Shown here: positions 24,485 through 33,995 of the stretch, in pieces
Numbering within the stretch: position 1 is the first letter of the stretch
How the letters are laid out: every line of letters starts with the position of its first letter
Origin: Marinobacter qingdaonensis
GTDB lineage: Bacteria > Pseudomonadota > Gammaproteobacteria > Pseudomonadales > Oleiphilaceae
Length of the DNA: 64,000 bases
Reading direction: 5' to 3'
Assembly (NCBI RefSeq): GCF_034555935.1
Contig: NZ_JAYDCJ010000003.1
Location: forward strand, 2,542,001-2,606,000
Translations under genes and position numbers: made by a program
The notes under the pieces: generated by a model
Told to the model about the DNA's origin: nothing
Databases searched by the model: none
What the model saw: the letters and a program-made list of their open reading frames with translations, nothing else

Positions 24485-24575
24485 GGTGGGCTGGCAGAGT
24501 GGCTGAATGCAGCGGTCTTGAAAACCGCCGAAGGTTAATAGCCTTCCCGGGGTTCGAATCCCTGGCCCACCGCCA
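24485..24575 (+). tRNA. tRNA-Ser (anticodon UGA)
   Basis: Acceptor GGTGGGC pairs with GCCCACC, discriminator G, encoded CCA at 24573-24575. The anticodon loop CTTGAAA in the stem gcggt/accgc gives anticodon TGA. A long variable arm (about cgaaggttaatagccttcc) marks it as a class II serine tRNA, and the T-arm carries GGTTCGAATCC. Its 3' end is the left attachment site of the element that follows; the gene is intact. Confidence 0.97.
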
Positions 24576-24581
24576 TTTTCC
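24561..24581 (+). repeat. attL direct repeat
   Basis: 21-bp core beginning cctggcccaccgccattttc, exactly repeated at 33834-33854. It covers the 3' part of the tRNA-Ser acceptor arm, CCA and six bases beyond, so the tRNA is regenerated on insertion. Confidence 0.93.
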
Positions 24582-24680
24582 CTTCTAAATCAGTTTCTTA
24601 CCCTCCAAAATCAGCTCTGGCCCCCAACGCGGCCCACATCCTCATTGCGCTTCATTCCTAACCGAAAAACGGAGGCGTAC

Positions 24681-25130
24681 ATGATGATTTCAGCAGCATC
24701 CCCAATCAATTCCAACTGCGAAAAATACTTCGGCAAGTGCAAAGAAACCGGCGCGATTGTTTACCGATTTCGCGGCCACGACTTTGGCAATGGTTGTGTC
24801 GATTCAGACGAGTCGCCAATCTGGATTAGGGATGATAGCGCTCCAATGAATAGACCATTTGAGTCTGAGCTATTGCTTCTGCCGGAGATTGACCGGACCC
24901 AAAGTCATGATCCCAGCCGTAATAGGGAAACTGTGCTCGAGCAGATCCGAGAGCGGATGCTGGAAGCGGAGGTTTTGATGATTGCGCTGGCAAATCCTCG
25001 CACCTACCAGCACTCCGATTCTGAGGACGTTTTGATTACTGCAATGGCGGAGAAGGCCAGGGAGTACCAGAGTGCCGCGGCTGGGGCTATGGAGCTCCTA
25101 ACAAACGATCCAGAGCCCTGGAAGGGGTAA
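24681..25130 (+). CDS. Element protein of unknown function
   Basis: 149 residues from the ATG at 24681, which has a strong SD (GGAGG) 7 bases upstream. N-terminal half has CEKYFGKCKETGAIVYRFRGHDFGNGC, with Cys residues spaced as if for metal or disulfide bonding. The C-terminal half is helical and acidic (ETVLEQIRERMLEAEVLMIALANPRTY). It is the only plus-strand gene of the element and has its own terminator, which suggests independent expression and possibly a host-benefit or regulatory role. No family recognised. Confidence 0.6.
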   Translation: MMISAASPINSNCEKYFGKCKETGAIVYRFRGHDFGNGCVDSDESPIWIRDDSAPMNRPFESELLLLPEIDRTQSHDPSRNRETVLEQIRERMLEAEVLMIALANPRTYQHSDSEDVLITAMAEKAREYQSAAAGAMELLTNDPEPWKG

Positions 25131-25146
25131 GGCCAGCCAGCATAGG

Positions 25147-25164
25147 GCCCCGGTCTCCCGGGGC
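25147..25164 (+). terminator. Terminator after the plus-strand element gene
   Basis: 7-bp stem gccccgg/cccgggg-c around a 4-base loop, followed by TTTG and a pyrimidine tract on the plus strand. Confidence 0.7.
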
Positions 25165-25186
25165 TTTGCCTTCTCTTATTTCACTG

Positions 25187-25519
25187 TCACCAATCTGTAT
25201 AGATGGCGATGGTCACTCTGGGGTGGTCTAGCGGGAGATAGAGGCTTTTCACTTCCGCTGCCAAAATCTGCCCGCCCTCGGCCAGTCTCTTGGTTAAGCT
25301 CGCTGCCAGTCTCTTCTTGATGTAGCCGATCTGCACTTCGACTTTCATAAACAAGCTGTACCAGCCCCGGACTTTTAGATAGACCGCGATGGCGTTGGGA
25401 TCATAGGGGTTGTTGGGCTCAGGAGAGAGAACAATCTCAGTTCCAGGTTTTGCACACAGCCTGATCTTATTGGCCCTTCCTTCAAAGCCGGTTCCGGCAA
25501 CGATCGCATCGTATCGCAT
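25187..25519 (-). CDS. Stand-alone HIRAN domain protein
   Basis: 110 residues from the ATG at 25519, with SD AGGAGG. Begins MRYDAIVAGTGFEGR and contains LCAKPGTEIVLSPEPNNPYDPNAIAVYLK...IGYIKKRLAASL, the HIRAN fold signature (NPYDxNAI, lGyl). HIRAN domains bind 3' single-stranded DNA ends in repair helicases such as HLTF, and free-standing copies occur in phages and mobile elements. It could aid replication, repair or packaging of the element. It is the leftmost minus-strand gene. Confidence 0.82.
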   Translation of the reverse strand: MRYDAIVAGTGFEGRANKIRLCAKPGTEIVLSPEPNNPYDPNAIAVYLKVRGWYSLFMKVEVQIGYIKKRLAASLTKRLAEGGQILAAEVKSLYLPLDHPRVTIAIYTDW

Positions 25520-25695
25520 GAGTATCCTCCTTGAATGGCTCACGCAAAAGTGTAGCTGCCTATCTCTGTGTTTCCAGATAGTAAAAGGTAAGTCCGGAAT
25601 GTGAATTTTGTGGGGAGATAAATATTCCTGGTTGCACGGTCTAGGTTCGGGGGCTCACCGTTAGCGATGCCACCCCCTGCCCATTGGGCCCTAAA

Positions 25696-27756
25696 TCAGC
25701 GGCCCTGCCGTCTCATTCCGTAAACCGATTCGTACGTTTTCGACGCTCTGCCACCATTAAGCGCATCAGCAACCACCACATCGATTACCCATTGCCCGTT
25801 ATCGTTCTGCCTGGCCTGCACTGAGCCGGCCTTGTCCGGGTTCTCGGTGATGTTCACGATCGGGGCGTCAGTGGAGGCACCACGCATCCTCTCCGATGCC
25901 AAGAACGCATCCAGGTTATCCGCCTGTGGTGCAGTTAACACGCGCTCGTCCTTGTCCAGCAACCATGTCCCTTCGCGTGGTACTCGGTCGATGCCGTCGT
26001 GAGCCATGCCAGTGAGGGACAGGCCCTTAGCAAGTGTTGTCGTGGTAAGGAGCGCCGCGGACGCGGGGCCAACGTTCGCGCCACCCGTCGCCAGTGCTGC
26101 CATGGCGGCAGGGCCGGCCCATGCCGCGCCTACGGTTTCGGCCTGAGCAATCGATGCCGTGGTGGCACTGGATCCCATGACCGCTTGTACCGCTTGCAGC
26201 GCCAGCCATTGGGCCGCCATCTGACCGATGGAGTTAACGACAGAGCGTAGGATAGTTTCGCCAATCCCCTCGAGCGCATCATCCAGGGTCTGGGCATCAA
26301 AGATGACCGACTCAAACGCATTCCCGAAACCGGTGGTGAAGTTGTCGACAACGGTTTTGCTCAGCTCGTCGAAGTTCTGCAAGTTCTCCTCGGCTGAGTC
26401 CATCCACTTGTCCCAGTAGGACAGCTCGATATCTTCCCCGCCGGTGTCAGAGCCGACCGATCCGCCAGCGCCCTCAGAATCGTCTGTGCCGGCCATCGGC
26501 CCTTTTGGGGTAACGGTAACGCCCATGGCTGACCGGATACGCTCGTTGGCCTCCTCAGTGAGCCTGGCGGCCTCGTCGGATTTCTCCCGGGCCTCGTCCA
26601 CGAATTGCTCGAACATGGTGGAGGGCAGCGGGGCCATCAGTGTGTTGTGAATGTCGTTCCAGCCTTCCTCAATTGCGCCTTTGGTCAGGGCAATCTCCTG
26701 GCGGATATCGTCACCGGGTAGGGCAATCAGATCCAGGTCGATCCCGGGCAGGGCATTGAGGGCAGAAATAATCTGATTGGCGGCCTCCACGGGCAGCTCG
26801 ACGGCATCCCGGTAGATGGTGAGCAGGATCTTTTTGACGTTGAGCCCCAGGATGGCCACGGCGCTCCCGGTTACGTCGATGACCCGATTCACCCCTTCCA
26901 CGGCATCGGCCACAAAGCCGGCAGCCTCGATGATGGCGTTAAAGCCGTCCTCCACGGCTTCCTCCATGCCGCCCACATCCTTGGCGGACTGAAGGAACAG
27001 ATCGGAGACGGCGGAGACAATCGGGGCGACCTGCACGGCCATCTGCTGGCCTACGGCGTCCATTAGCAGGCCGGTGCGGCCAAAGGCGTCATTCGCTTGC
27101 TCGACCTTGATGGCATCCACGGTGTCCAGGGCCAGGCCAAACGCTTCGACTTCCTGGCGGTAGGCCCGGATCGCATCCCCGCCTTGCATGAAGAATTGCG
27201 CGGCTTCCTTCTGTTCAAACCCGAGTTGCTGGGCATACCGGGCGGCTTCCTGAGCCGATGCGCCAGAGTCCCGGATCGCGTCGGCAATGCGGGCCACCCG
27301 TTCATCGGCATCCAGGCCGGAGAGTTCTTCCAGATTGAGGTTCAGCGCGTCCACGGTCTGGGCGGCCTCACCCGATCCCATCTCAGCGGCCCCCAGGCGA
27401 CGGTTAAGCCGTGCCAAGGATTCCTCGTAGCCATTCACCCCGGATTCATCGAAGGCAAAGCCCAGGGCGGTCACAGAGTCGTAGGTGGTGTTAAGGGAGC
27501 GGGCCAGCTTGTTCTGAGCGTCGATGGACTTGAGACTGCTGACGGTGAGGGCGGTTAGGGCAGCGGCCCCAGTGGCAGTGGCGGCGGTTGTTGCCTTGCC
27601 TACGGCCATGAGCCCGTTGCTGACTTTCTCCATGTCGCGCTCGACTTGCTTGCGCCATTTTTTGGATTGGCGCTCGGCCTTGTCCATACCCTGAACAAAA
27701 CCACCCGTGCGGGCTACGAGATCGATCGTAAGTTGGCCAAGTGACTTAGAAGCCAT
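25696..27756 (-). CDS. Phage tail tape-measure protein
   Basis: 686 residues. Starts LGQLTIDLVARTGGFVQGMDKAERQSKKWRKQVERDMEKV, the coiled-coil start of many siphophage tape measures. Long Ala-rich helical stretches, a hydrophobic segment near 300-330 and the GMAHDGIDRVPREGTWLLDKDERVL motif at about 600-620 follow; the latter is typical of the C-terminal region of tape measures in Pseudomonas- and lambda-like phages. It sets tail length and aids DNA ejection. No other tail gene flanks it. The frame is intact. Upstream lies a 252-bp gap, downstream the HIRAN gene. Confidence 0.87.
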   Translation of the reverse strand: MASKSLGQLTIDLVARTGGFVQGMDKAERQSKKWRKQVERDMEKVSNGLMAVGKATTAATATGAAALTALTVSSLKSIDAQNKLARSLNTTYDSVTALGFAFDESGVNGYEESLARLNRRLGAAEMGSGEAAQTVDALNLNLEELSGLDADERVARIADAIRDSGASAQEAARYAQQLGFEQKEAAQFFMQGGDAIRAYRQEVEAFGLALDTVDAIKVEQANDAFGRTGLLMDAVGQQMAVQVAPIVSAVSDLFLQSAKDVGGMEEAVEDGFNAIIEAAGFVADAVEGVNRVIDVTGSAVAILGLNVKKILLTIYRDAVELPVEAANQIISALNALPGIDLDLIALPGDDIRQEIALTKGAIEEGWNDIHNTLMAPLPSTMFEQFVDEAREKSDEAARLTEEANERIRSAMGVTVTPKGPMAGTDDSEGAGGSVGSDTGGEDIELSYWDKWMDSAEENLQNFDELSKTVVDNFTTGFGNAFESVIFDAQTLDDALEGIGETILRSVVNSIGQMAAQWLALQAVQAVMGSSATTASIAQAETVGAAWAGPAAMAALATGGANVGPASAALLTTTTLAKGLSLTGMAHDGIDRVPREGTWLLDKDERVLTAPQADNLDAFLASERMRGASTDAPIVNITENPDKAGSVQARQNDNGQWVIDVVVADALNGGRASKTYESVYGMRRQGR

Positions 27757-28008
27757 GGGTCTACCTCATGAAATTTGTGATACCTATTGATTGGTGATAT
27801 CTCATAGAAAACGTTTTGAAGTGAGTTAGGAAACACACGAAAGTTTGGCGGCGGCATTCGCCGGGAAGGCCTGAGATCGTCGATACACCCCCGGGGAGTA
27901 GGGGTGCTGGTCGTGGGCCGCTCAGAGGTTCGGCCCCACCAGCTCTCGGGGTTTTGGGCTGCCTGAAGTGCCGGGCACTCGCCGAGTAATCCCAGCTGAC
28001 ACATTCCT
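27757..28008 (-). other. Gap between protease and tape-measure genes
   Basis: 252 bp with no convincing gene. One reading frame from 28004 runs into the tape-measure gene but has its SD fused to the ATG and a Pro/Arg-rich product. The GC-rich part (27880-27990) could be a remnant of a deleted structural gene, or leader sequence with a promoter for the tape measure. Confidence 0.4.
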
Positions 28009-28521
28009 TTACGCCGCCTCTAGCCGCGATGCCATGAAGCGTCGAAGCATTCTGTTCCGGGCGGCCTGGTTGTCATGGGTAGCGGTGCGGGCGGACACGG
28101 TGCTAGCGGGATAGGCCGGCAGTGCGACGGTGCTTATCTCCACCAAGCTCACATCGATCAATGTGCGCTCAATCTCACCGCTCGACGTTTCGCGCCACTT
28201 CTCGCCAGCTGCGCCATTGATGAAAAACGAGAAGGACATGCTGGCGAGGTCGCCACGCCTAACCAATTCATGGATGTCGCGCCCCAATGAGCTGTCAGGC
28301 AATGCCAGATCGAAGTGTAAGCCGCGGCTATCCTCGGACAGCTTCAGGGTGCCGCTACGGGTCGATCCGAGAACATCCGCCATGCTGTGGTGATGGACAG
28401 CAAACACGGGATGACCATCGCGCAAGGTACGGGCAAACGCTCCCGGCGCGATGATTTCGCGGAAGCCGCCCAGGTCTACAGAGCGGCTATTGAATACGGC
28501 AGCGTGCCCGGTGATCTTCAT
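28009..28521 (-). CDS. HK97-family prohead protease (S78)
   Basis: 170 residues. Begins MKITGHAAVFNSRSVDLGGFREIIAPGAFARTL, the diagnostic start of the S78 prohead protease. The catalytic His is in FAVHHHSMADVLGST (about 40-55), and the Ser in ASMSFSFFI (about 93-101). VSLVEISTVALPAYP is the last conserved block. In full phages it matures the capsid by cleaving scaffold and the delta domain of the major capsid protein; here no capsid gene is present. Overlaps the upstream 80-aa gene by 4 bases (ATGA). Confidence 0.93.
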   Translation of the reverse strand: MKITGHAAVFNSRSVDLGGFREIIAPGAFARTLRDGHPVFAVHHHSMADVLGSTRSGTLKLSEDSRGLHFDLALPDSSLGRDIHELVRRGDLASMSFSFFINGAAGEKWRETSSGEIERTLIDVSLVEISTVALPAYPASTVSARTATHDNQAARNRMLRRFMASRLEAA

Positions 28522-28760
28522 GTGCTGGCATCCATGTCCAGGCCGCAGCGGCGTAGCTCACCGGATACGCGCTCGACTTCAGCCGCCCACCGCATTCCCG
28601 CTTCCTCGGTCTCAGCTGCCTCCATCTTCTCCCTGGCCTCAATCAGTCGGGCCAACATCCACTTCCGGGCCAAAGGGTGGCGAGCCAGCCCCGTGTATTG
28701 AGCCTTATCGGAGGCGGTCATACATGAGCGGGTGCCCGCTTCTGCTCGTTCGATCTTCAT
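28518..28760 (-). CDS. Small element protein, unknown
   Basis: 80 residues, helical, with YTGLARHPLARKWMLARLIEAREKMEAAETEEAGMRWAAEVERV. Coupled by 4-base and 1-base overlaps to the protease and the coiled-coil gene. Its position directly ahead of the protease suggests an assembly or regulatory partner. No family recognised. Confidence 0.62.
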   Translation of the reverse strand: MKIERAEAGTRSCMTASDKAQYTGLARHPLARKWMLARLIEAREKMEAAETEEAGMRWAAEVERVSGELRRCGLDMDAST

Positions 28761-29314
28761 TACGCAGCCTCCATAGCTTCCCGGATGCCGAGTTCGATCA
28801 TTAGTTGTTTGCTCTGATTGCCCTCGGGGTAGGTCATGGAGGCCAGAGCGCGGATGGTGTCGGGGTTAAACGTGATGCGCTGTCCGATTTGCGCTGCGTA
28901 CTGGCGAGCCTGGATCACCTCACGGGCCATCTGCCTGGATTCCTCTAGCATGGCCTGGGCCTTCGCTGCCTGGTCGAGTGCTTTATCCAGGGTCTTGCGG
29001 TGCTTGCTGGTGGCCTTTACCGCTTCCTCGCCCTGGGCAATCTTAATCGCCCGGTGTAGTTCGCTCTGTTGGCGGTGAAGCATCATGCTCTCGTCCTCGA
29101 GGTCCGACTCCGCCTGACGTACGGCGCGTAGTTCCTCAAGGTCGCCCGTGCCCATGGCGTTCTCCACATCGGTCTTTTTGGCCTTGAGCTCGGTCTCAAC
29201 TTCCTGGATCCGTTGGCTCACCTCTCGCTTAAGCTCCAGCAGATCCACCGCTGAGGCATTTTCCTTGATTGCCTCGGCAGCCCGTTGGGTCACGCTTTTA
29301 CGCTTCATAATCAT
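28760..29314 (-). CDS. Coiled-coil protein of the protease operon
   Basis: 184 residues, almost entirely charged helix (LLELKREVSQRIQEVETELKAKK, then the long Gln/Glu/Lys stretch to about 130), with a short globular end containing FNPDTIRALASMTYPEGN. A long coiled coil immediately beside a prohead protease is what a scaffold or capsid-size protein would look like, but no sequence family supports that. SD is weak; starts MIMKRK, and the second ATG (29308) is also possible. Confidence 0.65.
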   Translation of the reverse strand: MIMKRKSVTQRAAEAIKENASAVDLLELKREVSQRIQEVETELKAKKTDVENAMGTGDLEELRAVRQAESDLEDESMMLHRQQSELHRAIKIAQGEEAVKATSKHRKTLDKALDQAAKAQAMLEESRQMAREVIQARQYAAQIGQRITFNPDTIRALASMTYPEGNQSKQLMIELGIREAMEAA

Positions 29315-29481
29315 TGCGTTGATTCCTTTTGGTTGAGGAGGTCTAGCTGTGCCAGCCAGCCGGCGGCCATGGTGTCGCCCTGTTCTGCCTTCTCGCGAAG
29401 GAGTTGGTAGTAGCCACGGACGGCCTTGCGGCTCGGCTTGATGTTACGGCTGCCACGTGGGCGGCCACGGGTGCTTGCCAT
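29311..29481 (-). CDS. Small basic protein (GRPRGSRN motif)
   Basis: 56 residues from the ATG at 29481, SD GAGG. The N-terminus MASTRGRPRGSRNIKPSRKA holds an AT-hook-like GRPRGSRN motif, and the C-terminal part is helical (YYQLLREKAEQGDTMAAGWLAQL). The motif suggests DNA minor-groove binding. First gene of the four-gene run that ends with the prohead protease, each pair overlapping. Similar small proteins precede terminase or head genes in some phages, which I cannot verify here. Confidence 0.6.
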   Translation of the reverse strand: MASTRGRPRGSRNIKPSRKAVRGYYQLLREKAEQGDTMAAGWLAQLDLLNQKESTQ

Positions 29482-29574
29482 GATGTAGTCCTCTCTGTTC
29501 AATATGTGCTCAATTATACCAAAATACTGGTTATAAACACAGTATAGATTGCTTTTTATCCAATAAATGAGCAA

Positions 29575-29600
29575 TAAAAAACCCCGGTTCTTGGCCGGGG
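29575..29600 (-). terminator. Terminator after the 79-aa element gene
   Basis: Stem ccccgg/ccgggg. On the minus strand it is followed by a run of six T. It lies 25 bp past the gene ending at 29625. Confidence 0.8.
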
Positions 29601-29624
29601 CTTCGGATTATTGCTGAAACAGGA

Positions 29625-29864
29625 TCAATTGATTTCGTTTGGCTTGGGTTTTCGTGGTCGGGTGGACTCCCAGGGCTTGAGGTCGTCCATCAGGCTGTCG
29701 CACACAGAGTCCGGAAACAGCTTTTCATGTTTGGCCAGCATGACCATTCCAACGGCTGCGCCTTTGAGCAACACGAAGTCTTGATGGCCAGGGATGTACA
29801 TCGTTTTCAGGATCCCCGCCAAGGGATGATCCGGATAGGTGAGAATGAACTGGTCAACGGTCAT
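29625..29864 (-). CDS. Small element protein, unknown
   Basis: 79 residues: MTVDQFILTYPDHPLAGILKTMYIPG then LLKGAAVGMVMLAKHEKLFPDSVCDSLMDDLKPWE and a basic, Pro-rich tail. It has its own terminator and lies just downstream (minus strand) of the palindrome array. No family recognised. Confidence 0.6.
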   Translation of the reverse strand: MTVDQFILTYPDHPLAGILKTMYIPGHQDFVLLKGAAVGMVMLAKHEKLFPDSVCDSLMDDLKPWESTRPRKPKPNEIN

Positions 29865-29976
29865 TGTGAGCCCCCTATGGATTGCGAAGGTTTCGACCCG
29901 CGTGTGCCTTCCTGGCGGTCATGATTCCAACAGCCAAGCCTAAAGAATGAAGATAAGGTGTGGCTTAAGTAGGTGT

Positions 29977-30111
29977 GGTGTAAAAACGACACCTCTGGAT
30001 TCCCGAAAACCCGCTTACAGGTGTCAAAAACGACACCTCTGACTCTCGAAATCATGCCCAATGGTGTAAAAACGACACCTCTGGAGGTGCTACAGGTGTC
30101 GAAATTCCACC
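29977..30111. repeat. Array of palindromic repeats, 43-bp period (candidate origin or operator)
   Basis: Three near-identical copies of ggtgtaaaaacgacacctct start at 29977, 30020 and 30063, exactly 43 bp apart. The middle copy has one extra C. A degenerate fourth copy starts at 30095. Each unit is itself an imperfect palindrome (GGTGT-N7-ACACC). The array lies immediately after the putative replication gene (30123-30518). The spacing of about four helical turns puts all sites on one DNA face, as in iteron origins or cooperative operators. Confidence 0.75.
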
Positions 30112-30122
30112 GGATGATTTTT

Positions 30123-30518
30123 TTATGCTGCCTTGCTTTGGTCATCTGAGATTTCCTCCCAATCATTGGTTGGTTCTCGGTGTCGCCAACACGGCATCCA
30201 GGTGAGACGCCAGGTCCGGGTTTTAGAATGCGTCCGGGAGCTGAAAAGGCTTTCGTCGATCTTCACGATGAAGCCTGCCTCCTCGAGCTCCTTGAAGGCC
30301 CGCATTGCTGTTTTCCGCGAACATGGGATCTTGGCTTCGGCCTCTCTCACTCCATAGTCCACCGGCCCTCTGGGGGACCAATGCGTTTGCAATAACATCA
30401 TCAGTGCTTTCGCTTGGGGCGACAGATTGAGATAGGCTTCCGACGCCAGTAATCGGCGCTGGATGGCGACTACACCCCCCTTCTTATCGAAGGGGAGTCT
30501 TGGTTTGTTTTTCGCCAT
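30123..30518 (-). CDS. Winged-helix protein, probable replication initiator or regulator
   Basis: 131 residues. LLASEAYLNLSPQAKALMMLLQTHWSPRGPVDYGVREAEAKIPCSRKTAMRAFKELEEAGFIVKIDE is a winged-helix domain like those of phage/plasmid replication proteins (RepA_N/phage_rep_O-like). The C-terminus is basic, Trp-rich, then acidic. It lies beside the palindrome array, as iteron-type Rep genes do, but it is short for an initiator and lacks a primase or helicase domain. It could instead be the repressor that binds those repeats. Confidence 0.6.
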   Translation of the reverse strand: MAKNKPRLPFDKKGGVVAIQRRLLASEAYLNLSPQAKALMMLLQTHWSPRGPVDYGVREAEAKIPCSRKTAMRAFKELEEAGFIVKIDESLFSSRTHSKTRTWRLTWMPCWRHREPTNDWEEISDDQSKAA

Positions 30519-30556
30519 AGGGCGTCACCCCTGCGGCTCTGAGAGGTATGTAGGGA

Positions 30557-30949
30557 TCATCCGGCGGCCCTCCTTGCCTCATAGGCATCGAGCAATGCCT
30601 GGGCTCTCTCCCGAGACTCCGGCTTCAGGTGGTAAACGCCGGGGCGTGTCTTGAAGCCGTCGCGGTCGATCACTTCAATCCGCTGGGTTTTAATCTGAAT
30701 CAGGAAATCGTGCCGCAATTGGCCGACATACTCCGGGCCGTTGGTAGTGCCTGCCACGCGATCGGCTTCGAGCCGGGGCAGGGGGCCAGCCAAGAGCCGC
30801 TGAAGCAATCGGACGTGCCGAGGGCTCAATTGCACGGCGAGGATTAACAGGCTGCTGTGGTTGTGGTTATACTGCGCGTGAGTACCAAGTGCTTTTTCTG
30901 AGCTCTCGACCAGGTTGCCGCCGGCGGGAGCTTTCTTTTCCTCAGTCAT
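30557..30949 (-). CDS. Element protein with possible DNA-binding fold
   Basis: 130 residues. Low-complexity N-terminal 35 residues, then LSPRHVRLLQRLLAGPLPRLEADRVAGTTNGPEYVGQLRHDFLIQI, which reads as a winged-helix (GPEYVxxLR recognition helix) and ends in RERAQALLDAYEARRAAG. Third gene of the run starting with the AlpA-like gene (1-base overlap with the 71-aa gene upstream). Function unknown; probable DNA binding is inference. Confidence 0.6.
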   Translation of the reverse strand: MTEEKKAPAGGNLVESSEKALGTHAQYNHNHSSLLILAVQLSPRHVRLLQRLLAGPLPRLEADRVAGTTNGPEYVGQLRHDFLIQIKTQRIEVIDRDGFKTRPGVYHLKPESRERAQALLDAYEARRAAG

Positions 30950-31164
30950 TACTTTCCCTCCCTCTCTTCGATCCAGCTAAACAGCTCCTCGAGTGCGACG
31001 ACTTTGCAGCCGCTAACACGCTCGATTCTGAGCTCGCCCAGAGAAACAGCATCGGTTACTTCCGATGCGGTCAGGTTCATCGTGCGGGGTACTTCGGATA
31101 GGGCTAGGTATTGCTGGCGGCCTCGGAAGAACCAGCCGGGCTGAACGGATTGGTTGGTTTTCAT
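30949..31164 (-). CDS. Small element protein (MerR/excisionase-like?)
   Basis: 71 residues. YLALSEVPRTMNLTASEVTDAVSLGELRIERVSGCKVVALEELFSWIEE resembles the helix-turn-helix plus wing of excisionase/MerR-type proteins. It overlaps the AlpA-like gene by 4 bases and the next gene by 1. Possibly a second directionality or regulatory factor. No firm family. Confidence 0.58.
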   Translation of the reverse strand: MKTNQSVQPGWFFRGRQQYLALSEVPRTMNLTASEVTDAVSLGELRIERVSGCKVVALEELFSWIEEREGK

Positions 31165-31355
31165 GCCGCTGCCTCCTTGCTGGCTTCCCAGGCTTCGATC
31201 TCTGAGAGCTTCCAGCGGGTGCAGTTCGGGCCAAGCTTTATAGGGGAGGGGAACGTACCTTTCTTTGCCCAGCGCCAGGGTGTGACACGGGAGACTTGGT
31301 AGCGAAGGGCTAAGTCCAAGTCCGAAACATACTTCTCTGCCAAATCACGGTTCAT
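31161..31355 (-). CDS. AlpA-family regulator/excisionase
   Basis: 64 residues: a HTH of the AlpA/Phage_AlpA type with YQVSRVTPWRWAKKGTFPSPIKLGPNCTRWKLSEIEAW. This is the standard signature (S..T..RW...G.FP.P......RW...ei..W). AlpA proteins activate integrase or act as excisionases in P4-like satellites. First gene of a four-gene minus-strand run; the upstream region 31356-31482 contains repeats. Confidence 0.92.
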   Translation of the reverse strand: MNRDLAEKYVSDLDLALRYQVSRVTPWRWAKKGTFPSPIKLGPNCTRWKLSEIEAWEASKEAAA

Positions 31356-31425
31356 CGTTGTGCCTCATGTGATTTCGTTTAACACATGGGCAGTTAGCCA
31401 GCGGAATGAACGGCTTGAGACGCCT

Positions 31426-31488
31426 CTCCAGTGGACTAAGAGCAGTTTCCAATGGATAAAGAACAGTCTCCTGTGGAGACTGCTATCT
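31426..31488. repeat. Three degenerate 21-bp tandem repeats upstream of the AlpA-like gene
   Basis: ctccagtggactaagagcag, ttccaatggataaagaacag and ctcctgtggagactgctatc begin at 31426, 31447 and 31468, exactly 21 bp apart. A repeating ctcc.rtgga core is visible. They lie upstream of the AlpA-like gene and may be binding sites for it or for the integrase. The third copy is partly explained by the terminator hairpin. Confidence 0.4.
31461..31482 (-). terminator. Terminator of the integrase operon
   Basis: Perfect stem cagtctcc/ggagactg around tgt (31464-31482), directly after the stop of the gene ending at 31483. On the minus strand it is followed by TTCTTT. Confidence 0.65.
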
Positions 31489-32370
31489 CAGCTTAATACC
31501 ATTGTCCTTGGCGTACTTCCGAATCCAGTTTGTGATTGTTCGGGGCTCGTATTCATGGCCTCTAGCTTCGAGCCAGTCAGCATAATAGACACCGGCTTTT
31601 TCGGCGCTTCGGAATTCGCTTTTTCTCTTGCTCCAATCTTGCGTAACAAGTTGCACCGCCTCGTTTCGTTTGGCATGTCTCCCAGAATTCATCGACTGGG
31701 ATTTCCTCCTTTTTTGGCATTCGTCTCTTAGTTCTATATTTCTTTTAGTGCGGTTATAAGCGTCGATCTTTTCAAACCAGTGGGTTACCCAGTCATAATC
31801 GAGCCCTCCAGCATCACCGAAAGAAACGCCGATGAGAGTAGTGTCTAGGTGTGAGAGGGTAAAATAGGCCGCTAGAAGTTCCCGATCGTATGGGAAACAC
31901 TCAATATCCATCTGTAAACACTGTTGTTCGCATATGTCGTCAAGCATCACCAGGCTGGGCTCGATTGCGGAATGCGCCCAGAACCCCCTAGGGTCAACGG
32001 TTATAGGTGGAAGCTCCGTAATGGGCTCGGCTGCTTCTGACAAGAGTATTAAACGGCCATCGGTAATCAGCTTATCGAACATCTCCTTCATACTGTTGAA
32101 AACCTTAACCATCTCCGAGGGATAGCGCTCCCTTAACTCCTTAAACGATTCGGTAGTAATCTCCCCGTCTTCCACCTTTGATCTCACAACATCGAAGGCT
32201 CTTTTGCCCGCTTCCCAAAGAATAGGATCGGAAATCGGTTTTTCATCAAACCCGGTCATGATGAACGTCTTATTCTGCTCTCCCTCTTCTCCTTCGCGAA
32301 AGGACTTGATCGGGTCGAACGACCAGTCGTAGGTTCTTTGAGCTGGCAGTTTCAATTCTTTATTGCTCAT
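31483..32370 (-). CDS. Unknown protein coupled to the integrase
   Basis: 295 residues from the ATG at 32370 (MSNKELKLPAQ). It overlaps the integrase stop by 4 bases (ATGA), so the two are translated together. Composition is markedly A+T rich compared with the chromosome. The N-terminal 200 residues have no recognisable motif. The C-terminal 75 (RHAKRNEAVQLVTQDW...AGVYYADWLEARGHEYEPRTITNWIRKYAKDNGIKLR) look like a HTH domain common at the end of phage-associated proteins. May be a recombination or regulation partner, or cargo. Confidence 0.65.
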   Translation of the reverse strand: MSNKELKLPAQRTYDWSFDPIKSFREGEEGEQNKTFIMTGFDEKPISDPILWEAGKRAFDVVRSKVEDGEITTESFKELRERYPSEMVKVFNSMKEMFDKLITDGRLILLSEAAEPITELPPITVDPRGFWAHSAIEPSLVMLDDICEQQCLQMDIECFPYDRELLAAYFTLSHLDTTLIGVSFGDAGGLDYDWVTHWFEKIDAYNRTKRNIELRDECQKRRKSQSMNSGRHAKRNEAVQLVTQDWSKRKSEFRSAEKAGVYYADWLEARGHEYEPRTITNWIRKYAKDNGIKLR

Positions 32371-33665
32371 GCTTTGCTCTCCCCAATGGCTACCACCTTG
32401 CCGGATTCTTTCTTGGTCTCGCCGTGCAAACAGAACTGCGCCCAATCCGCCATCAGTAGCCGACGCTTGTCTATCAGCTCTGAGCGGGCGTAGGCGGCCC
32501 TTGTGGCGTCACTGTTGACGTGGGCTAGGGCGAGCTCCGAAACCTCGTCAGCATACGCCGTGTGCTCCCGGGCCCAATCCTTGAACGTGGATCGGAAGCC
32601 GTGGGCGGTTACTTTCTGATCCATTCGCTTGAGCAAGGCGGAAAGGAAATTGTTTGAGGGAATATCCCCCTTTGGCCCCGGAAAAATCAGGGCTTCAGGC
32701 TTGCCGAGTTCCATGGATTCCAGGAGCTTCACAGCTGCATCGGTCAGCGGGACGCGGTGTTCCTTTCCTGATTTCATGCGATCCGCTGGCACGGTCCACA
32801 GCTTTCGCTTGAGGTCTACTTCCTGCCAGGTCACACCGGGCTTTCCAATGCGCTTGTCGCCAATCACCTCGTTGGTTCGGGCAGCAGTGAGAATCAGGAA
32901 CTCGAGAGCGCGGGCCGCTGTGCCGGTGCGCTTTTGCAAATCAGTCATAAACTCCGGCATCTGTTCGACCGGCAGGGCAGAGTGGTGATTCTTCTTTTTG
33001 ATTTTCTCGGGCGATGGATAGACTTCATCCAGATAGCCCTGCCACCGAGCAGGGTTGTCGTTGGACCGATAGCCGTGAATTGCGCACCATCCGAGAATGT
33101 TCTCGATCCTGGCCCTGACGCGGTTGGCCGTCTCGGTTTTCGTTTCCCAGATCGGATCCAGCACCAACTTAATGTGTGACAGCTCAATCTCTCGAACTGG
33201 CACCTTGCCAATGTGCGGGACGGCGTAGGTATTGAGGCTATTCTTCCACTGCTGCGCCTGCCTCGGGTTTTTGAATTCCTTCTCTTTCATCTTGATGTAT
33301 TCATCCATGGCGGCGACAAAGGTTAGGGTGCTGATTTGTTCCGCCAGCAGAGCCCGCTTTAACGCTCGTTTCTCTTCCAGTGGGTCTACCCCTTCCCGGA
33401 TCTTTTCTTTCACCTCACGGGCTTTCTCTCGCGCCTGTGCGAGTGAAATCTCTGGGTACGGGCCAAGGCCAACGTCTCGGCGCTTAATTCCGATTTTGGT
33501 TCTCAGTATCCAGAGCTTGGAGCCGGAGGGCGTGACTTTAAGAAGCAGGCCGGAAACTCCGCCAACCGGATAGCGGACCTCAATAGCTTTTCCGGATTTC
33601 GGGTCTACCCTGTGGGAGAGGCGCTTTACCTCAATTGGCGTAAGTTCCTTGGCAATCTTTGGCAT
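32367..33665 (-). CDS. int: P4-type tyrosine integrase
   Basis: 432 residues. The N-terminal DUF4102 arm-binding domain (PKIAKELTPIEVKRLSHRVDPKSG, then LLLKVTPSGSKLWILR) is followed by a SAM-like core-binding domain and the catalytic domain. Catalytic residues: Arg in LTAARTNEVIG, the HGFR motif (TAHGFRSTFKDWA), the LAH block and the Tyr in RAAYARSELIDKRR. This family integrates at tRNA 3' ends, consistent with the tRNA-Ser target. It lies about 170 bp inside the right attachment repeat and reads inward. Confidence 0.96.
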   Translation of the reverse strand: MPKIAKELTPIEVKRLSHRVDPKSGKAIEVRYPVGGVSGLLLKVTPSGSKLWILRTKIGIKRRDVGLGPYPEISLAQAREKAREVKEKIREGVDPLEEKRALKRALLAEQISTLTFVAAMDEYIKMKEKEFKNPRQAQQWKNSLNTYAVPHIGKVPVREIELSHIKLVLDPIWETKTETANRVRARIENILGWCAIHGYRSNDNPARWQGYLDEVYPSPEKIKKKNHHSALPVEQMPEFMTDLQKRTGTAARALEFLILTAARTNEVIGDKRIGKPGVTWQEVDLKRKLWTVPADRMKSGKEHRVPLTDAAVKLLESMELGKPEALIFPGPKGDIPSNNFLSALLKRMDQKVTAHGFRSTFKDWAREHTAYADEVSELALAHVNSDATRAAYARSELIDKRRLLMADWAQFCLHGETKKESGKVVAIGESKA

Positions 33666-33995
33666 CGAAAAAGCCCACTATTTGGCCCACAAAAAATGTT
33701 GTCATTCGATGCTACATGGTGCTACGCTGCGTTACAAGTGCTTGAGGATGAAATTCGTTAAGGCGCTGTTTTTGATAGGTAATTTGCTTTTTATAGGCGG
33801 GAAAAACAAGTGCTTAGGTGGTGAGTTAGTATTCCTGGCCCACCGCCATTTTCCTCCCCTTCTAGTATTTGCACCCCGTTTTTTCGATCGTCGTTGAATC
33901 CCCGACAACCCGGTTAATACCGTTGCTTGCATCTGATCCGAATCGGTGTGGCGATGAGTTGTGGCTAAGCGTGACCGCCAGCCTGCGGGCGAGGT
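33666..33995. other. Right end of element and junction
   Basis: No gene. Holds the integrase upstream region, two copies of acaagtgctt(g)agg (33734-33747 and 33806-33818) that could be integrase arm sites, the attR repeat and about 140 bp of chromosomal spacer downstream of pxpA. Confidence 0.6.
33834..33854 (+). repeat. attR direct repeat
   Basis: Exact second copy of the 21-bp core at 24561-24581. The flanking bases differ on both sides, so the repeat is precisely 21 bp. Confidence 0.93.

Follow-up and report, generated by a model that had tools for sequence, protein, structure and literature searches.

What kind of mobile element keeps a phage prohead protease and a tape measure protein when no capsid gene is recognised among its scanned open reading frames (ORFs)? 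The question is raised by a 64,000-nucleotide stretch of Marinobacter qingdaonensis (contig NZ_JAYDCJ010000003.1, positions 2,542,001 to 2,606,000; hereafter the window, whose numbering is used throughout), in which positions 24561-33854 hold a 9,273-bp element in a tRNA-Ser gene. We find that this element is very probably an intact integrated phage satellite, built in the manner of the phage-inducible chromosomal islands (PICIs), as judged from its gene content and its relatives. Three adjacent genes, orf184, orf80 and the protease, form a core that recurs in the same order in three other tRNA-borne elements.

The element lies between two exact copies of a 21-bp attachment (att) repeat, CCTGGCCCACCGCCATTTTCC, one of which overlaps the 3' end of the tRNA. 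This 21-mer occurs twice in the whole 64 kb, both strands checked, and the likeness of its two copies extends to 27 of 30 bases; the four remaining repeated 21-mers of the window all fall inside a set of iteron-like repeats within the element. Along the minus strand, starting at the distal end, the genes follow one another as integrase, orf295, AlpA, orf71, orf130 and an HTH_36 protein, then three palindromic repeats, orf79, orf57, orf184, orf80, protease, a 252-bp gap, tape measure and HIRAN gene, with orf161 at the tRNA end as the sole gene assigned to the plus strand. Frames are unbroken and often coupled, either by ATGA overlaps (int/orf295, orf57/orf184, orf80/protease and alpA/orf71) or by TAATG (orf184/orf80 and orf71/orf130). 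The integrase has the central (2.4e-26), arm (8.6e-20) and catalytic (2.1e-11) Pfam domains; the HTH_36 protein has weak PHROG matches to replication initiation (best 3.4e-4), and two exact copies of the repeats behind it read GGTGT-N7-ACACC. Guanine-plus-cytosine (GC) content forms a mosaic, at 0.51-0.56 over much of the element and a host-like 0.60-0.61 in the protease-tape measure part, next to flanks of about 0.62.

Family scans covered 16 ORFs of the element with Pfam and PHROG (10 of the 16 also with NCBIfam), many smaller overlapping ORFs being left out. Capsid, portal, terminase and lysis families were absent from these 16, as were conjugation or mobilisation families and RepA_N, and neither Pfam nor PHROG gave a primase match; 'major head protein' families were matched by the protease alone, probably via protease-capsid fusions. 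The prohead protease itself also passes the NCBIfam cut-off (proheadase_HK97, 9.7e-31). A sequence-only reading of the window had described a 9.3-kb tRNA-Ser element with exact 21-bp repeats, an intact integrase, an AlpA-like regulator, overlapping operons without broken frames, and a prohead protease and tape measure without capsid, and all of this is borne out by the ARAGORN tRNA call, the repeat count, the couplings and the family scans.

Further evidence came from the core. Three further att-bounded elements were found, all in genomes of the Haliea family and at three other tRNA genes: L062, from Haliea (9,055 bp between 68-bp repeats that are 97% identical, tRNA-Arg(tct)), L155 in genome G854 (9,035 bp between exact 53-bp repeats, tRNA-Arg(cct)) and L156 in genome G961 (7,305 bp between 17-bp repeats, at the end of tRNA-Ser(gga)). 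In each, orf184, orf80 and protease are adjacent and ordered as in the window, with identities to the window of 66, 60 and 54% for orf184, 71, 66 and 65% for orf80 and 81, 78 and 70% for the protease (L062, L155 and L156, respectively). The other modules differ. By tblastn the window integrase is 42% identical to that of L156, aligns over 62 residues only with that of L062 and has no match in L155 at E 0.01. L062 and L155 carry primase/helicase-type genes, with AAA_25 in both, and in L156 there is AlpA (7.6e-21), and direct repeats follow a 142-aa gene that matches no family, so that two elements have replication genes of the primase/helicase type and two, the window's and L156, have a small gene and then repeats; AlpA was found only in these same two of the four. 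Since the integrases and replication genes differ among the elements, the core stands out as their retained part. A PHROG scan of 30 proteins of the relatives, exclusive of the L155 and L156 core genes and some small ORFs, gave head or packaging matches to the L062 protease and three small terminases and none to capsid, portal or large terminase. L062 also has, near its end, a minus-strand ORF (L062:12755-13183) that matches phrog_79 (anti-termination protein Q-like, 1.3e-14), and a link to late phage gene control is possible.

The core genes are under constraint. In 13 pairwise comparisons, which exclude the orf184 genes of L155 and L156, nonsynonymous divergence (pN) was 0.11-0.25 and synonymous divergence (pS) 0.53-0.82. 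The protease belongs to a clade of 35 sequences (P0010-P0044; 168-187 aa, 53-100% identical to the window's), which are the first 35 of the best 120 of 1318 matches and are set off by a drop from 183 bits to 151 bits at the next sequence. H43, H45, S96 and E128, which we take to be active-site residues, are invariant in 35/35. Most of the 34 other clade members come without gene context, because for 24 of them the longest contig is under 10 kb. At E 0.01 neither phage nor plasmid records contained a match to orf184, and 50,697 phage records searched at E 0.1 contained none to orf80. An AlphaFold2 model of orf184 built from nine sequences (mean predicted local distance difference test score 84, predicted template modelling score 0.54) shows one long helical hairpin, formed by helices 22-56 and 59-142 and flanked by short helices. 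From this modelled shape, the coupling to the protease and the absence of a capsid gene, a scaffold-like role for orf184 is reasonable but no more. The top ten PDB rows for the model were ESCRT-III/Vipp1-type helical proteins, which we did not use (root-mean-square deviation at least 8.5).

Core-bearing elements are rare in the genomes sampled. The sequence-only reading had proposed looking in Marinobacter and Halomonas genomes for 8-11-kb islands of the same gene order; core-bearing relatives lie in the Haliea family instead, and in the genus a clade-level protease, as defined by the profile of 35, is present in 1/124 genomes, the element's own, with four others at 1e-34 to 1e-43. It is found in 2/390 genomes of the order (own and Haliea; six further genomes match the profile at 1e-35 to 1e-39, below clade level), 3/140 genomes of the family of the Haliea genome (G538, G854 and G961; a fourth at 3e-32) and 1/369 genomes of the class at E <= 1e-45 (own). 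When orf184 was used as query against proteins, nine sequences including its own came back, one of them from a Haliea sp. metagenome-assembled genome; the profile of these nine picked out a single locus, L062, in a genome scan and only the window's own genome among 369 of the class. In 97 genomes near the window's, orf184 matched itself and, weakly, five of the 96 others (27-29% over 74-107 residues, E 1.5e-4 to 0.001). These five were left aside, and no further element protein lay beside them at E 0.01. Among viral sequences, the orf184 profile found nothing in IMG/VR, and no clade-level protease was present among the best 80 of 577 IMG/VR loci, where the top identity was 52%.

A second recurrent feature points to packaging. 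Downstream of the protease, all three relatives encode a terminase small subunit (phrog_83 at 4.7e-16 in L062, 2.8e-13 in L155 and 5.7e-21 in L156; Pfam Terminase_4 above cut-off in L156 only), and the gap between the two genes holds a block of about 90 bp that is 79% identical over 94 bp between L155 and L156 (E 3e-13). A similar block lies directly upstream of the small terminase gene in Pseudomonas phages Psp6 and TC7. Of 1000 shuffles, none reached the score of L155 or L156 against either phage, and 1 and 7 reached that of L062 against Psp6 and TC7. In the record of Rhizobium phage 16-3, the annotated cohesive end immediately precedes base 1 and base 46 is the start of the small terminase gene, with a comparable G-rich stretch upstream (2, 28 and 120 of 500 shuffles for L062, L155 and L156). 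We call the block cos-like (cos, cohesive-end site) because of its likeness to the stretches before the small terminase in these three phages. In the window, the tape measure occupies the place of the relatives' cos-like block and small terminase. The gap between protease and tape measure resembles the block of L155 (1 of 500 shuffles) and of Psp6 (1 of 1000) more than those of TC7 (37 of 1000), L062 (91 of 500), L156 (180 of 500) or phage 16-3 (85 of 500), and that the packaging site of the window element lies there is a suggestion only, from sequence likeness. Table 1 collects the features of the element.

Table 1. Features of the tRNA-Ser element and its target, in window coordinates.
Feature	Position	Strand	Basis or remark
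tRNA-Ser(tga), target of integration	24485..24575	+	ARAGORN
att copy, overlaps tRNA 3' end	24561..24581	+	21 bp exact
orf161, cargo	24645..25130	+	open frame; no match in Pfam, PHROG, PADLOC or NCBIfam
HIRAN-domain protein, probable cargo	25187..25543	-	Pfam 3.8e-11; phrog_23559 1.3e-42
tape measure protein, 686 aa	25696..27756	-	phrog_2854 4.4e-94
intergenic stretch where relatives have the cos-like block	27757..28008	-	weak similarity, best at ~27800-27900
HK97-type prohead protease (S78), 170 aa, core gene	28009..28521	-	Pfam Peptidase_S78 2.4e-43
orf80, core gene	28518..28760	-	65-71% identity to three relatives
orf184, core gene	28760..29314	-	54-66% identity to three relatives
orf57, small, coupled to orf184	29311..29481	-	open frame, ATGA overlap with orf184
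orf79	29625..29864	-	open frame; no family match in Pfam, PHROG or PADLOC
three palindromic iteron-like repeats, candidate replication origin	29976..30085	.	directly 3' of HTH_36 gene
HTH_36 protein, 131 aa, possible replication initiator	30123..30518	-	Pfam HTH_36 1.8e-6, above cut-off
orf130	30557..30949	-	open frame; no family match in Pfam, PHROG or PADLOC
orf71, coupled to alpA by ATGA	30949..31164	-	nothing better than E 0.04 in Pfam or PHROG
AlpA-type regulator/excisionase	31161..31355	-	Pfam 1.7e-6, above Pfam cut-off; phrog_66 1.4e-8
orf295, ATGA overlap with integrase	31483..32370	-	no family match in Pfam, PHROG, PADLOC or NCBIfam
tyrosine integrase, 432 aa	32367..33665	-	Pfam; phrog_1 1.6e-41
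att copy, distal end	33834..33854	+	21 bp exact

Taken as a whole, a PICI-like satellite with the following cycle is likely the best explanation of the locus. A helper phage would enter and switch on alpA; such induction by a helper is proposed by analogy with EcCICFT073 and the phage-inducible chromosomal minimalist islands, PICMIs (PMC6092414 and PMC10803314, each in part), and dependence on a helper is likewise a proposal. The protease, the relatives' small terminase and the cos-like block suggest that this helper would be a siphophage with an HK97-type head and cos packaging. AlpA and integrase would then excise the element from tRNA-Ser, and the HTH_36 protein would start replication at the iteron-like repeats. 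The coupled orf184-orf80-protease would act on the helper's assembling head, with orf184 serving as a scaffold-like helical partner that the satellite's protease matures; this action of the core on the helper's head assembly is a tentative proposal. Element DNA might be cut and packaged by the helper terminase at the cos-like site, and the tape measure might become part of helper tails or act there as a competitor, a step that we put forward a shade more tentatively still and to which we give more weight than we otherwise would because tape measures are in print for other putative satellites. A bolder version, in which satellites of this class remodel both ends of the particle, the protease and its helical partners redirecting heads without a capsid gene of their own and a shortened tape measure setting tail length, seems to us unlikely on present evidence; if it were true, satellite particles would be distinguishable from the helper's by both head and tail size.

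Several results weigh against this account. By tblastn, the window AlpA has no match in L062 (E 0.1) or L155 (E 0.01), and the tape measure none in the elements L062, L155 and L156, so that it may be a passenger. The relatives' small terminases have no match in the element at E <= 1; the best matches that they have elsewhere in the window are at E 0.017 or weaker. When the window was searched with five models of the block, none ranked the cos-like gap first, and one placed it fourth at E 4.7. The orf184 model gave nothing at E <= 1e-3 by Foldseek against PDB and BFVD, and the idea that orf184 is a remnant of the N-terminal domain of an HK97 capsid was rejected after its profile was compared with three capsid N-termini (probability 0.1%). 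Finally, neither Terminase_4 nor TerL_ATPase has a match in the window's genome. Because the strain is without a resident HK97-type terminase, the helper would come from outside.

The closest relatives of the window's tape measure are P0131 (684 aa, 84%) and P0132 (682 aa, 76%), whose longest contigs are 17.3 and 4.1 kb, followed by five of 738-749 aa that are 52-57% identical over the aligned part (P0133-P0137). The window protein, P0131 and P0132 lack, near residue 441, a charged stretch of probable helix that is present in the other six of nine aligned tape measures and in L007, L008, L009 and L011; P0138, P0139 and P0143 have 662-702 aa at 49-51% identity, and short length alone is thus not unique. 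Over the first 440 codons of the window's tape measure, pN is 0.29 and pS 0.79 against viral contig L008 (427 codons aligned). Eleven of 100 genus genomes have a match, including the window's own, the best of the others reaching 53% over 194 residues. It could be that the element is a satellite whose tape measure is a recent, non-functional passenger from recombination with a helper, the small terminase having been lost on the way and the element being now immobile. The tape measure does sit where the relatives have cos-like block and small terminase, has a GC content like the host and unlike the rest of the element, lacks a counterpart in the three relatives and adjoins a weak cos-like block. 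Yet the frame runs unbroken through 686 aa, GAGGT precedes its ATG at a short distance, the same gap is kept in two sequences that are 76 and 84% identical, which implies selection on this form somewhere, and other putative satellites have a tape measure too (PMC10448857, in part). We therefore regard a passenger as rather unlikely, though it is the alternative that survives best.

Two observations on lengths stand apart from this argument. P0021, a protease of the clade, and P0148, a 708-aa tape measure, come from the same source and both have a longest contig of 12,268 bases; they may share a contig, which would then be a second satellite with both genes, but with about 34 x 119 lengths to compare a coincidence by chance is not to be dismissed. 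Multiples of the element lengths (four times 9,273, 9,055 or 9,035 bp and five times 7,305 bp) come to 36.1-37.1 kb, near the 37,096- and 37,626-base contigs with related tape measures; this likeness is post hoc and was given zero weight.

The protease module might instead be an anti-phage weapon, protease and orf184 misprocessing or blocking the helper's procapsid and the tape measure disturbing tails or distracting tape-measure-directed defences. There are parallels: PICI-encoded Tai proteins block tail assembly (PMC11364771), and the prophage protein Tab recognises the tape measure protein of an invader (PMC10884400, in part). The Haliea element also has a PD-T7-4-like gene (1.2e-10) and the window element a HIRAN gene. 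However, in three of the four elements the module abuts the cos-like block and small terminase, which defence alone would not need, and we consider this reading distinctly improbable.

That the element is a decaying HK97-type prophage, stripped of its genes for capsid, portal, terminase and lysis while protease and tape measure survived by chance, is very unlikely. The protease and tape measure do belong to phage families, the terminase is gone and the GC content is mosaic. But the frames are intact and coupled, and the three-gene core recurs in three elements with other integrases at other tRNA genes; these three relatives largely refute decay. In addition, two of the core genes are without match in phage records and core pN is much below pS. 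The sequence-only reading had also preferred a satellite to decay, arguing from the missing genes, which alone would not decide between the two; the preference is upheld by the three tRNA-borne relatives, the exchange of modules around the core and the low pN. Hardly credible is, last, an integrative element moved by other means, such as generalised transduction, with the phage-like genes as cargo, for although no helper is known, the scanned ORFs include no conjugation or mobilisation family and the relatives have the cos-like block and small terminase.

We return to the satellite reading and its target site. The tRNA-Ser target was found in 120/124 genus genomes. Of 30 loci compared (29 relatives and the window), two relatives, L181 and L194, show the tRNA-Ser compactly between what we take to be bi1 and pxpA, an arrangement equal to the window minus the element; pxpA had no match in the examined stretch at the other 27. 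The sequence-only reading had asked whether relatives hold a full prophage at this att site. A second att-like copy does occur beside tRNA-Ser in 3/124 genus genomes, all of other species, 25 kb (G128), 61 kb (G003) and 129 kb (G004) away, and one of these intervals is phage-like by eye (L201). The whole G128 interval and the parts of the G003 and G004 intervals that were examined have no protein in common with the window or the Haliea element at E <= 1e-3. In G128, a sister species, tRNA-Ser adjoins a 25-kb island (L199, G128:C1:102000-121900) with a 1217-aa gene that presumably resembles BREX BrxC. Elsewhere, the window's own genome has a region that looks like a prophage by eye and encodes a distant S78-type protease (32%; L059, G000:C1:536044-536412).

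Two further genes deserve mention. The HIRAN gene occurs in phages as well as in the element: by sequence, its product is 58-59% identical over 95% of its length to genes in six Pseudomonas phage records (eight records have any match), and it has a weak PADLOC match to PDC-M03B (6.7e-4). In the Haliea element, a DUF4145 protein (L062:11970-12716) matches both PADLOC PD-T7-4 (1.2e-10) and phrog_1305 (DNA binding protein, 8.3e-35).

How does the element compare with known satellites? Some of these take over complete heads, others reduce head size by means of scaffold-like proteins, and others again form capsids of their own. P4, a small tRNA-borne satellite, relies on its helper for cos packaging, and P4-like satellites are marked by the P4 alpha, Sid, Psu and Delta genes. 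No P4 family turned up in the general scans of the element, among which no P4 model was searched by name and Sid was untested; Sid and cos are also treated in PMC10690885 (in part).

The sequence-only reading had set the element beside PICIs, capsid-forming PICIs (cf-PICIs), P4-like elements and PICMIs. Kinship to PICIs holds up in some features, and our element would work like a PICI. As in the Gram-negative, EcCICFT073-type PICIs (PMC6092414, in part), it has an integrase and an AlpA-type regulator, one transcription direction except for orf161, repeats directly 3' of a replication-type gene, a size of about 9-10 kb and accessory cargo, and the relatives' packaging modules recall the use of a helper's cos or of an own small terminase there. 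It differs from them in its core of HK97-type protease, orf184 and orf80, in its tape measure and in having a small HTH_36 protein, not a primase, as replication gene. PICI origins have two iteron sets around an AT-rich region, by the same account, and the window has three repeats 3' of the HTH_36 gene. That account also describes PICI att sites as never used by temperate prophages of the species, and PICIs as having exclusive genes (PMC6092414, in part). Judged by the second att-like copies, other islands share our tRNA in 3/124 genus genomes, all of other species, and orf184 and orf80 are without match in phage records, a search that covered phages and not PICI gene sets. PICIs are further marked by induction that depends on a phage, by interference and by packaging into infectious particles.

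Kinship to cf-PICIs and PICMIs does not hold up. The prohead protease, and the small terminase of three relatives, recall cf-PICIs, but no major capsid, portal, connectors, large terminase or HNH was found (PMC10690885, in part, for the class): of the cf-PICI set, the window's 16 ORFs contain the protease only and the 30 proteins of the relatives protease and small terminase only. An element of that kind is present in the same genus (L054, G100:C14:62000-81000, at ~4.2-13.4 kb), with integrase, AlpA-like, capsid-, protease-, portal-, small-terminase- and large-terminase-like genes in this order, as judged by eye with the protease alone tested. With PICMIs (PMC10803314, in part) the element shares AlpA, an ATGA overlap between int and another gene, a very small size and a gammaproteobacterial host. 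PICMIs are defined by int, alpA and primase; here int and AlpA are present, a primase match is lacking, the site is tRNA-Ser and not fis, and head and tail genes are carried. Again by what that source describes, PICMIs have no capsid-remodelling genes and are packaged as a concatemer; our element has a head protease.

The nearest parallel to the role proposed for orf184 is Rcm of the Staphylococcus aureus pathogenicity island (SaPI) SaPIpT1028, a multi-helical protein that interacts with the major capsid protein (PMC12409344, in part). By description, both would be multi-helical satellite proteins working on helper head assembly; orf184 differs in being coupled to a protease, and its action on heads is a proposal from analogy. 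For the tape measure, the parallel is a set of 224 putative E. coli satellites with RepA_N genes, att-flanked and in many cases beside tRNAs (PMC10448857, in part). These have, by description, a putative tape measure without most tail genes, which gives a tape measure in a putative satellite its precedent, but carry major capsid and decoration genes and lack prohead protease, terminase and AlpA; the scanned ORFs of the window element include protease and AlpA but neither capsid nor RepA_N. In the open-licence literature, to which our search was confined, nothing describes a protease-centred satellite group. Because three genes suffice to recognise it, the group can be searched for and tested in harmless environmental bacteria. 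With the tape measures here and in the putative E. coli satellites, one may ask if tail length, too, is a target of satellites, and a head protease kept without a capsid gene suggests that head assembly can be diverted in yet another way, beside those by which known satellites steal heads, shrink them or build their own.

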